Positions 2,996 through 23,603 of a stretch of 64,000 bases of DNA are shown here, one piece after another. The stretch is taken from contig JAOADD010000059.1 of assembly GCA_026417495.1 (NCBI GenBank), positions 1-64,000 on the forward strand, written 5' to 3'. This DNA is from Ignavibacteria bacterium (GTDB lineage: Bacteria; Bacteroidota; Ignavibacteria; Tepidaquicellales; Tepidaquicellaceae). Below the pieces are notes generated by a model, which was not told the DNA's origin, made no database searches, and saw only the letters and a list, made by a program, of their open reading frames with translations. The translations under genes and the position numbers were made by a program. Positions within the stretch are counted from its first letter, which is position 1. The number at the start of each line of letters is the position of its first letter.

Positions 2996-3007
2996 TAGAG
3001 GAATAAT

Positions 3008-3808
3008 ATGTCAGAAAATAATAAAATGAAAGAAAAGGTAAAGAAAAAATATACTCAAATTTTAAAATCATCAGAAAATTCTACATCATGCTGCTCTTGT
3101 TCCTGCAATTCAGAAACAAACTATACAATATTTAGTGATGATTATACTAATATTGATGGATATGTACCTGAAGCAGACTTGAACCTTGGATGTGGTTTAC
3201 CTACTGAATTTGCAAAAATTAAAACTGGCGATACTGTGGTTGATTTGGGGTGCGGAACGGGAAATGATGCATTTATTGCAAGAAAAATTGTTGGTGATGA
3301 AGGAAAAGTAATAGGTGTGGACTTTACAAATGATATGATTAAAAGAGCAAAGGAAAGTGCAAAGAAATTAAATTATCATAATGTTCTCTTTTTGGTCGGA
3401 GATATTGAAAACTTACCATTGGAAGAGAGCATTGCGGATGTTGTTATAAGTAATTGTGTTTTGAATTTGGTACCTGATAAAGAAAGGGCTTTTGCTGAAA
3501 TATATAGAATATTAAAATCGGGTGGACATTTTTCTATTTCGGATATTGTTTCAACTGAAAATATTCCGACTTACTTAAAAAGAATTGCTGAACTATATAC
3601 AGGTTGTATTTCGGGAGCATTAACTCTTGAAGAGTATTTTACAATTATCAAGAAGGTAGGCTTTTCTAATATTGAACTGCAAAGTAAAAAGGAAATAATA
3701 ATACCTGATGAAATTTTGCTGAAGCATTTAAATAAGAGAGAATTAGACAATTATAAAAAAACAAATATTAAATTCCTAAGTGTGAACATATATGCTGAAA
3801 AGGGATAA
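3008..3808 (+). CDS. arsM: Arsenite S-adenosylmethionine methyltransferase
   Basis: A 266-residue SAM-dependent methyltransferase that methylates As(III) in the cytoplasm. SAM motif I is VVDLGCGTGNDAF (~residues 77-89). Cysteines sit where ArsM enzymes bind arsenic: C62 in NLGCGLP, C150 in ISNCVLNL and C200 in YTGCISGA. An additional cluster C28, C29, C31, C33 precedes the fold. The fourth Cys found after motif I in algal ArsM is Ala here. It follows arsR by 12 bases, with GAGG before the ATG. ArsR-ArsM without an efflux pump implies detoxification by methylation and loss of volatile or diffusible products. Confidence 0.88.
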   Translation: MSENNKMKEKVKKKYTQILKSSENSTSCCSCSCNSETNYTIFSDDYTNIDGYVPEADLNLGCGLPTEFAKIKTGDTVVDLGCGTGNDAFIARKIVGDEGKVIGVDFTNDMIKRAKESAKKLNYHNVLFLVGDIENLPLEESIADVVISNCVLNLVPDKERAFAEIYRILKSGGHFSISDIVSTENIPTYLKRIAELYTGCISGALTLEEYFTIIKKVGFSNIELQSKKEIIIPDEILLKHLNKRELDNYKKTNIKFLSVNIYAEKG

Positions 3809-16023: not shown

Positions 16024-16503
16024 GGTTAATTCATTTTCTATATATATACTTACCCCAAAAGTAAATTTTTAAAAAAATCGCAAACACTTTCTTAAGAAAA
16101 AGTTTTAAAGCAAAAAATCATATTTTATCTTAAGCCATATTTACAGGTAATGATTTTTTAAATTAGGAGTCATGATTTTAATTATATTTGGATATTTAGT
16201 AGTATATCATTCCAGTATTATCGGTATTCGTAACTATTCCTAATCCGAAAAAATTGTTTCTATATTAAATTTCAAATCGGTTTAACAATTTTCATTTTTG
16301 ACAGAAGTATTCTTTAAGCACTTGAAATAATTATCTGTATAATTTAAAAGTTGAAAGTTTAAATCAGAAAGATTATAAAAACCTGGTGAATATATTATAA
16401 ATAGGAATTTTAGAAATATGATTGTTAATTTAAAGCAGTGATTATACTCTATTTTTTTATTGCAAAGTGAACTATTTATTTATATCAATGTTTGAGAAAT
16501 TTA
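16024..16503. other. AT-rich region, no gene seen
   Basis: 480 bases between the pseudogene start and the GIY-YIG repeat fragment. All frames are broken on both strands; I see no RNA gene, and no repeat other than the one that follows. Confidence 0.4.
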
Positions 16504-16693
16504 CTATATAGAATCTATCTTTTATTTTACTTTTTAAGATGTAAGTATAAAATGGCATAAACAAAAAATGCAGGTATAATTCCTGCATTAGCGGAAACGA
16601 TCCCGACTCAGTCGGGACGACTACCTGAGTGCTTAAAAATTAACCATTGAATATATTTTTTATTTTTAATTTTTTTAAGTTGTTTTTCTCTTT
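16504..16693 (-). repeat. Decayed GIY-YIG/tRNA-3'-half repeat (left copy)
   Basis: This stretch is nearly identical to the junction between the tandem units at 22.9-23.5 kb and lies in the same orientation. On the minus strand it holds, in order: the last ~28 codons of one GIY-YIG gene (16693-16608, ending KHSGSRPD-stop); a 40-base tRNA-Asp-3'-half-like segment (16631-16592); the AATGCAGG/CCTGCATT terminator hairpin (16589-16563); and the first ~19 codons of the next GIY-YIG gene (16558-16504, MPFYTYILKSKIKDRFYI). Both genes are truncated, so it is a remnant of at least two units. No tRNA gene remains beside it. Confidence 0.88.
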
Positions 16694-22774: not shown

Positions 22775-22912
22775 TTATAATAAAGAATTAATAATTTTAA
22801 AAAATTATAATCTTTGCTAATACGAGATTAAACTTATCTTATCATTTGTTAAGTTATAAAATAGAATTTAAGAAAAACAGGTATATACTTTGATAGTATG
22901 AACTAAAACGAC

Positions 22913-23179
22913 TCAGTCAGGACGACTACCTGAGTGCTTAAAAATTAACCAATGAATATATTTTTTATTTTTAATTTTTTTGAGTTGTTTTTCTCTTTTA
23001 AGGGCATCTGATTTTGAGTCAAATTTTTCATAGTAAACAATTTCCCAGGGGATAAATGGTTTTGTAGACTTAGTTTTTCCTTGATTATGGTATTGTAATC
23101 TTTTTTCAAGGTTAGAAGAACTTCCTATATAGAATCTATCTTTTATTTTACTTTTTAAGATGTAAGTAAAAAATGGCAT
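22913..23179 (-). CDS. Small GIY-YIG nuclease, distal copy
   Basis: 88 residues from ATG 23179 (an in-frame TTG lies two codons earlier). Compact GIY-YIG domain of the COG2827/YhbQ type: first strand FTYILKS, the YIG strand in RFYIGSSSNLEKRLQYHN with the catalytic Arg, and the metal-binding Glu in IVYYEKFDSK or the ALKREKQLKKIKNKK helix. The C-terminal HSGSRPD is encoded by a tRNA-3'-half-like sequence. It differs from the proximal copy at only three residues. A hairpin terminator lies in its leader, so expression must read through it or start at the gene. Probably a DNA endonuclease of a selfish element. Confidence 0.85.
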   Translation of the reverse strand: MPFFTYILKSKIKDRFYIGSSSNLEKRLQYHNQGKTKSTKPFIPWEIVYYEKFDSKSDALKREKQLKKIKNKKYIHWLIFKHSGSRPD

Positions 23180-23183
23180 AAAC

Positions 23184-23210
23184 AAAAAATGCAGGTTTTA
23201 TTCCTGCATT
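23184..23210 (-). terminator. Hairpin terminator between the two GIY-YIG copies
   Basis: On the minus strand AATGCAGG and CCTGCATT (8-bp perfect stem, 7-base loop) are followed by six T. Same hairpin as after tRNA-Asp, five bases before the distal GIY-YIG start codon. Confidence 0.8.
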
Positions 23211-23212
23211 AG

Positions 23213-23252
23213 CGGAACCGATCCCGACTCAGACGGGACGACTACCTGAGTG
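23213..23252 (-). other. tRNA-Asp 3'-half-like segment inside the array
   Basis: Read on the minus strand: CACTCAGG, a six-base spacer, a T-arm-like stem TCCCG/CGGGA around the loop TCTGAGT, then TCGGTTCC and the CTAATGCAGG terminator start. It corresponds position by position to the tRNA-Asp anticodon-stem 3' strand, T arm and acceptor 3' strand (23566-23529), where the T loop is TTCGAGT. It lacks any 5' half, so it is not a tRNA gene. Its first half is coding for the C-terminus HSGSRPV of the proximal GIY-YIG protein. Confidence 0.8.
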
Positions 23253-23495
23253 CTTAAAAATTAACCAATGAATATATTTTTTATTTTTAATTTTTTTGAG
23301 TTGTTTTTCTCTTTTAAGGGCATCTGATTTTGAGTCAAATTTTTCGTAGTAGACAATTTCCCAGGGGATAGATGGTTTTGTAGACTTAGTTTTTCCTTGA
23401 TTATGGTATTGTAATCTTTTTTCAAGGTTAGAAGAACTTCCTATATAGAATCTATCTTTTATTTTACTTTTTAATATGTAAGTATAAAATGGCAT
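23229..23495 (-). CDS. Small GIY-YIG nuclease, proximal copy
   Basis: 88 residues from ATG 23495. Upstream in-frame codons reach back through the terminator hairpin but would encode the tRNA terminator, so ATG 23495 is the sensible start. Sequence features as in the distal copy: YTYILKS, RFYIGSSSNLEKRL, SDALKREKQL; C-terminus KHSGSRPV. It starts only 34 bases after the tRNA-Asp 3' end. The gene lies between a real tRNA 3' half upstream and a mimic of it downstream, which suggests the tRNA gene is its insertion target. Confidence 0.87.
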   Translation of the reverse strand: MPFYTYILKSKIKDRFYIGSSSNLEKRLQYHNQGKTKSTKPSIPWEIVYYEKFDSKSDALKREKQLKKIKNKKYIHWLIFKHSGSRPV

Positions 23496-23499
23496 AAAC

Positions 23500-23526
23500 A
23501 AAAAATGCAGGTATAATTCCTGCATT
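23500..23526 (-). terminator. tRNA-Asp terminator hairpin
   Basis: Minus strand AATGCAGG-AATTATA-CCTGCATT followed by TTTTTT; 8-bp perfect stem beginning three bases after the tRNA. It ends the tRNA transcript and also forms the leader of the proximal GIY-YIG gene. Confidence 0.85.
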
Positions 23527-23528
23527 AG

Positions 23529-23603
23529 TGGAACCGACGAGACTCGAACTCGCGTCCTCCTGAGTGACAGTCAGGCGTTCTAACCAAACTGAACTACGGC
23601 TCC
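23529..23603 (-). tRNA. tRNA-Asp (anticodon GTC)
   Basis: A complete 75-base cloverleaf on the minus strand: acceptor GGAGCCG/CGGTTCC with discriminator A, D stem GTTC/GAAC, anticodon stem CCTGA/TCAGG with loop CTGTCAC (anticodon GTC at 23568-23566), variable AGGAC, T stem GCGAG/CTCGT with loop TTCGAGT. CCA is not encoded. A hairpin terminator follows three bases later and then the GIY-YIG array. Confidence 0.95.

Follow-up and report, generated by a model that had tools for sequence, protein, structure and literature searches.

tRNA genes are used by integrative islands, whose tyrosine integrases rebuild the 3' end of the gene that they enter. REP/REPIN palindromes and their RAYT (Y1) transposases follow another plan, with a small enzyme gene between inverted palindromes and dispersed non-autonomous copies. 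In ordinary homing, insertion destroys the target site, so that the carrier is immune. SegB of T-even phages is a free-standing GIY-YIG homing endonuclease located beside tRNA genes (PMC13096335, citing Brok-Volchanskaya 2008); it is reported to cut within tRNA-containing sequence and to give tandem amplification via similarity that the 5' region of the tRNA gene shares with the 3' region of segB (PMC13096335). In fungal mitochondria, mobile open reading frames (ORFs) are known from atp6 of Allomyces and from atp6, atp9, cox2, and nad3 of Glomus; the endonuclease ORF enters a gene and brings a replacement 3' end, while the native end is displaced downstream, and the atp9 case is GIY-YIG (PMC3630166).

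We describe a bacterial element of about 0.3 kb in which a GIY-YIG gene stands beside a tRNA gene and ends in a copy of part of that tRNA (the mimic). It was found in a 64,000-nucleotide stretch of Ignavibacteria bacterium DNA (the window), drawn from a 2.19-Mb assembly. Like SegB, its nuclease is GIY-YIG, intron-less, and adjoins tRNA genes. SegB differs in being a larger phage protein, and the passages on it in PMC13096335 describe no displaced tRNA half, arm-swapping hairpin, or 300-nt unit. With the mobile ORFs, the element shares a replacement gene end and a displaced native end (at the tRNA-Gly, -Met, and -Pro pairs below), a likeness of mechanism only; the former lie in mitochondrial protein genes, are mostly LAGLIDADG, and have no hairpin, whereas the bacterial element occupies tRNA genes, displaces either half, and stacks in tandem. 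It is unlike integrative islands in its size, its hairpin junction, its lack of an integrase, and the fact that the 5' half can be displaced. Searches of the open-access literature yielded no description of tRNA-linked bacterial GIY-YIG elements with this architecture, nor any of GIY-YIG with REP-like palindromes.

The tRNA-Asp locus

The array was read on the minus strand and comprises the following features.

23528..23603, minus strand: intact tRNA-Asp(gtc), upstream border of the array (Rfam tRNA, 70 bits)
23500..23524, minus strand: intrinsic terminator TGCAGG-AATTATA-CCTGCA-TTTTTT (hairpin and T-run), between the tRNA and nuclease gene 1
23229..23495, minus strand: GIY-YIG nuclease gene 1 (ATG at 23495 to TGA at 23229; 88 amino acids), with C-terminal codons and stop inside mimic 1
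23211..23252, minus strand: mimic 1, the tRNA-Asp 3' portion with the T-arm swapped, CACTCAGG ... TCGGTTCCGCT (pieces CACTCAGG at 23252-23245 and TCGGTTCC at 23221-23214, then GCT)
23222..23238, minus strand: junction hairpin TCCCG-TCTGAGT-CGGGA, at the place of the tRNA T-arm
23184..23208, minus strand: second copy of the terminator, same hairpin
22913..23179, minus strand: GIY-YIG nuclease gene 2
22909..22936, minus strand: mimic 2, cut short in the hairpin or just beyond it
16485..16693, minus strand: third copy, broken (C-terminal end of the nuclease, mimic, terminator, N-terminal start of the nuclease)

The initial annotation had described this order of tRNA-Asp, terminator, GIY-YIG gene, mimic, terminator, gene, and truncated mimic, and the same order was recovered as a 300-nt repeat (97% identity; period, 316) far above chance. 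It had also placed the C-terminal codons and stop of the gene within the mimic, where the TGA of gene 1 (23231-23229) indeed lies, in frame inside the junction hairpin loop. Its proposal of a unit with neither integrase nor transposase agrees with the ORF content, as the GIY-YIG ORF was the only one in the 316-nt unit and no tyrosine or serine integrase ORF was present there. The third copy was absent from that annotation; it is 94% identical, retains an intact hairpin (TCCCGACTGAGTCGGGA, 16601-16617) and a terminator of tRNA type, and lies in AT-rich DNA without a tRNA nearby.

An alignment of the stretch downstream of the nuclease with the tRNA and 60 nt of 3' flank scored 118 (inflated by the repeated linker), against a best of 25 in 100 shuffles. 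Against the tRNA alone, the window mimic scored weakly (20, versus 18 for shuffles), because the window copy has lost AGTCTCG. In relatives, Asp mimics have the form CACTCAGGAGGTCG-[TCCCGAxxxxTCGGGA]-AGTCTCGTCGGTTCCGC and match their tRNA base for base outside the hairpin, which secures the tRNA origin of the window mimic. Its reading as a tRNA 3' half, feeble on the window copy alone, is thus sustained by the relatives.

The nuclease

Both window ORFs matched Pfam GIY-YIG (PF01541; E, ~1e-18). In the family alignment, Y18, G20, R28, H32, and E64 were invariant, and Y7 was present in at least 90%; the AlphaFold model (pLDDT, 91.5) matched the fold of UPF0213, Slx1, and I-TevI. By domain match, catalytic residues, and fold, the window protein is a member of the GIY-YIG superfamily. 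The gene is under purifying selection, with dN/dS of 0.04 to 0.14 in between-genome pairs with measurable dS; the window gene pair has only five differences (2 nonsynonymous and 3 synonymous; 79 codons). A PHROG homing endonuclease was matched only at an E value of 0.005, and no relationship to SegB was found beyond the catalytic domain. A group I intron was rejected, as the Rfam search of the region gave no intron family and the NCBIfam group I endonuclease model stayed below its cut-off; a defence system was likewise set aside, with only weak homing-endonuclease-like matches.

Distribution and tRNA adjacency

Homologs were present in 116 of 148 relatives. A same-strand tRNA stood beside 92 of 122 non-redundant arrays, upstream within 200 nt in 71 (in many at 1 to 60 nt), downstream within 250 nt in 20, and inside in 1, where chance adjacency would be about 0.3%; relatives within sampled families partly share elements by descent. 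Small GIY-YIG genes close behind tRNAs are common in related genomes, where the initial annotation had proposed looking for them. Among more distant YhbQ-like homologs used as a control, only 1 of 68 was beside a tRNA. The neighbouring tRNAs were of about 20 isotype/anticodon types, and many of the 30 arrays without a nearby tRNA were at contig ends.

The closest named relative of the window protein was in an Ignavibacteria genome (70% identity). Named hosts outside the group of the window were Mucilaginibacter, Ferruginibacter, Flavisolibacter, and Belliella, and two candidate-phylum genomes carried homologs with the tRNA downstream. Of 391 genomes of the class, 27 had the exact Asp junction, AGGTCGTCCCGA-N(1-12)-TCGGGAAGTC; the reversed control had none. 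At a threshold of 1e-5, no relative of the window protein was found in a phage collection (50,697 records) or in a plasmid collection. The window locus is one instance of a large, widespread family, which explains many short GIY-YIG genes annotated beside tRNAs.

Empty and filled tRNA sites

A tRNA-Gly site between tRNA-Thr and rpmG-Trp-secE was empty in G038 (L196) and filled in G036 (L195), with a flank 96% identical. The filled site read native 5' flank, tRNA positions 1-27 + TCCCGCAAAGCGGGA + 43-56, linker, intact tRNA-Gly, nuclease gene, and a 3' mimic with TCCCGCGAAGCGGGA that runs into the native 3' flank. At tRNA-Met, one locus was empty (L244), one filled (L243), and one held two units (L242); in these units the promoter region was duplicated and the 5' part displaced, with the intact tRNA downstream. 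At tRNA-Pro, L262 retained a terminator 3' of the displaced end, resembling the one after the displaced end of L259, and L259 and L261 carried older displaced ends without an intact nuclease gene. Native flanks or a terminator joined to mimic halves place the insertion inside the tRNA gene, with either half displaced. In these orthologous pairs, the intact tRNA travels with the element or is completed by it.

At a fixed site in each case (Gly, Met, and Pro), some near relatives carried the nuclease gene and others lacked it; this presence/absence and the site specificity across hosts are features of a free-standing homing nuclease. For the tRNA-Asp locus of the window itself, a search gave no exact empty counterpart, the nearest relatives being about 70% identical, so the with/without comparison rests on other tRNAs in the same order.

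The initial annotation had proposed that a unit of tRNA 3' half, terminator, and nuclease body inserts at the anticodon loop, restores a working tRNA, and displaces the old 3' half, and had called for a comparison of empty and filled tRNA-Asp sites. Insertion, restoration, and displacement were all seen, and the comparison made, at Gly, Met, and Pro instead of Asp. As for nuclease genes lacking mimics, or mimics unrelated to tRNA, either of which would have told against it, mimics were instead found to recur with the same tRNA in many copies. The fixed insertion point was wrong, since the junction lies in the T-arm for Asp, and for other isotypes it is at the D/anticodon boundary, in the T loop, or covers the entire anticodon arm (27-43). 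A 3' half is not what the unit carries as a rule, some units having a complete tRNA (Gly), nor is it always the part displaced, as Met units bring a promoter and whole tRNA and displace the 5' half along with the promoter. The model was right in outline and had no place for the arm-replacing hairpin that is present in nearly every mimic.

Hairpins at the mimic junctions

Asp mimics begin on the 3' side of the anticodon and run to the acceptor end of the tRNA; about positions 51-58 (T-arm) are exchanged for the hairpin. In Gly, Ala, Pro, Gln, Leu, Val, and Lys mimics, the anticodon arm (about 27-43) was exchanged, and in Met mimics the exchange was at the D/anticodon boundary. A clean hairpin insertion of 18 to 27 nt in the anticodon or T loop was present in some Ser, Gly, and Pro copies. 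Most of the tRNA-adjacent arrays carried, at the end away from their tRNA, a mimic of it; in 57 of 70 upstream-type arrays, the neighbouring tRNA gave a better fit to the mimic than a tRNA of any other isotype. The pair next to the TCCCGA/TCGGGA core was complementary in 19 of 25 distinct Asp loops (7.0 expected), in all four Watson-Crick orders; a second hairpin pair gave no clear covariation in Asp loops (5/11; P, 0.18). Because the closing pair covaries, the junction sequence is kept as a hairpin. In nearly every mimic, a covarying hairpin at the junction either takes the place of a tRNA arm or interrupts it. In L014, the junction aligned as what looks like a mutated anticodon arm (TCTGAATGGCATTCAGA to TCCGAATGAAATTCGGA).

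By eye, the nuclease stop (TAG, TAA, or TGA) often fell in the hairpin loop among Asp-type junctions. The hairpin was also considered as a dispersed repeat of the window's own genome and rejected as such, with three sites only.

Isotype fidelity and stacking

In 49 of 83 cases, the nearest protein from another host family was located at a tRNA of the same isotype (11.2 expected; none of 20,000 shuffles of labels within host families reached 49), and the protein tree required 42 isotype changes, versus 76 for shuffled labels. Within a nuclease lineage, the tRNA isotype stays the same from one host family to the next.

Twelve upstream-type arrays contained a truncated nuclease copy, which in every case was the one distal from the tRNA (L020, where a contig end cuts the array, was excluded). 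Identical tandem units occurred in L272 (five copies) and L168 (three). Full units can also be combined in an array with nuclease-less ones; L275 mixed unit types, and L273 held four units without a nuclease, 121 nt each, with differing terminators. Tandem tRNA-like fragments with hairpin-swapped arms and no nuclease gene were seen in L273 (G165:C42:52200-53800), L120, L188, and L012; such arrays look like non-autonomous relatives of the element.

Palindromes of relatives outside tRNA genes

Among the control nucleases not associated with tRNA, a GC-rich hairpin lay in the upstream 100 nt at 37 of 67 loci, versus 6 to 7 in background windows. Hairpins on both sides were found at 31 of 63 loci and were inverted in 23 of the 31, commonly in the form GTCATTCCCGC..GCGGGAATCCA. 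Some of these upstream hairpins could belong to neighbouring genes as their terminators; the inverted arrangement of the pairs and their common sequence speak against this as the full explanation. In eight such genomes, the palindrome was present in 3 to 74 copies per genome (0 in the reversed control); three of the eight lacked any Y1/RAYT transposase, and the palindrome was absent within about 1.5 kb of all 8 Y1 loci examined. The tRNA junction hairpins and these palindromes have a similar core. Since the non-tRNA relatives are flanked by inverted palindromes with such a core, the hairpin is probably the partner site, for binding or cutting, of this nuclease group, and the covarying hairpin is a likely substrate for this large group.

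Proposed mechanism and alternatives

The units are located within tRNA genes, where the displaced fragments abut native flanks and an intact tRNA is left, and they stack in tandem. The best explanation, and in our judgement a moderately probable one, is homing to tRNA genes through break repair, in which the mimic acts as a homology arm that cannot be cut. The unit would consist of a replacement tRNA part with a terminator or promoter, one GIY-YIG gene, and a tRNA fragment ending in a hairpin. The nuclease, which we infer to be the driver of insertion, would cut the cognate uninterrupted tRNA gene at one arm, and homologous recombination would repair the break from the element-bearing copy, the left end pairing with the donor's intact tRNA and the right end with its mimic. 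The new copy would thereby restore the tRNA from donor sequence and push the old half outward. With its arm replaced by a hairpin, the mimic could serve as homology and yet stay uncut; the rebuilt tRNA would still be a target, so further rounds would stack units beside it while older ones decay outward. By analogy, SegB and the fungal mitochondrial mobile ORFs make each of these steps reasonable, and neither, as described, has a tRNA-arm hairpin.

Two points stand against homing. The mimic arm of this putative homing nuclease is altered, yet an intact tRNA persists beside an intact nuclease gene, unlike in ordinary homing, so that low expression, a narrow activity window, or a flank-dependent site must be assumed. 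Nor does homing in itself explain why a hairpin fold, instead of any scar, is kept and covaries. Few autonomous mobile elements in bacteria would be smaller than this one (about 0.3 kb, with a single gene of about 85 codons), which uses essential single tRNA genes without losing them and would be a bacterial case of the "replacement-end" homing known from fungal mitochondria.

In one alternative, the palindrome itself is mobile and recognised by the GIY-YIG nuclease, much as RAYT transposases recognise REP palindromes; tRNA arms are invaded as natural hairpins, and the gene rides between two hairpins. The strong hairpins on both sides of non-tRNA relatives (31/63; 23 inverted) would suit it, as would the dispersal of their palindromes (3 to 74 per genome, in three genomes without Y1, and away from the 8 Y1 loci), the similar core of the junction hairpins, and the clean 22-nt double-hairpin insertions between TTC and GA of the T loop. 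We nevertheless regard transposition of this kind as unlikely, because junction hairpins occur at just three sites in the window's genome and are no dispersed repeat there, some junctions resemble mutated anticodon arms instead of inserted palindromes (L014), and no hydrolytic GIY-YIG nuclease is known to join DNA. Local duplication, in which tandem tRNA copies arise, the nuclease gene hitchhikes between them, and spare copies decay with no targeting by the nuclease, is topologically like the insertion of a tRNA-bearing unit; identical tandem units (L272 and L168) are what it predicts, and amplification as reported for SegB can yield such arrays. Four observations make it a poor fit and rather improbable: nuclease clades remain at a single isotype in different host families, an array can contain unlike units (the 121-nt non-autonomous units of L273; the mixed L275), decay is polar (12/12), and the spare copies have exact arms exchanged for hairpins in place of random decay.

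Mimics keep tRNA-like pairing and covarying hairpins, run in the transcript direction of the tRNA, and often hold the nuclease stop in the hairpin loop, all of which would accord with a function at the RNA level, the nuclease acting on the tRNA or a tRNA-like transcript and the mimic being a decoy, antitoxin, or regulator. A DNA palindrome would give the same covariation, however, and a mobile element accounts for the presence/absence polymorphism, the tandem stacking, and the relics better than a host regulator does, which leaves this reading very doubtful. That the arrays are relics of integrase-type islands with the tRNA 3' half as attachment site is scarcely credible. Integrases do restore tRNA 3' ends, and 3'-half tRNA-Asp copies 10 to 11 kb away in relatives (G007 and G016) fit such islands; the unit nonetheless has a length of about 316 nt and a single ORF, encodes no integrase, occurs in tandem, can displace the 5' half with promoter duplication, and has a hairpin at its junction instead of a clean core repeat. 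Unit size and the two displacement directions led us to reject it.

More radically, though with lower probability, the elements may belong to a hitherto undescribed class of mobile system that pairs a minimal GIY-YIG nuclease with a DNA (or RNA) hairpin. Its free form would lie between inverted palindromes and seed dispersed copies, as a GIY-YIG counterpart of REP/RAYT, and its tRNA form would swap arms for the hairpin while rebuilding the tRNA gene. If this is true, essential tRNA genes become renewable docking sites.

Other observations

YhbQ-like GIY-YIG genes of many phyla lie between inverted palindromes (L047-L114, e.g., L089, L093, L094, L098, and L113; gene position in these loci, about 3001-3210), and their dispersed palindromes include close inverted doublets. 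These loci resemble REP/RAYT in having an enzyme gene between inverted palindromes and dispersed copies; they differ in that the enzyme is GIY-YIG, not Y1 (PF01797), and that, in the genomes checked, no Y1 gene lies near the palindromes. Such genes and palindromes are possibly a GIY-YIG counterpart of REPIN/RAYT.

The 22-nt double-hairpin insertions, e.g., TCCCGAAGGGACTCCTTTGGAG, lie exactly at the TTC/GA point of the T loop (L142:1817-1925, L118, L115, and L259) and were found in displaced tRNAs of different isotypes. The distant 3'-half tRNA-Asp copies, 10 to 11 kb from the intact tRNA, are at G007:C354:32656-43971 and G016:C2:901157-911194 and fit ordinary integrase-type islands at that same tRNA.
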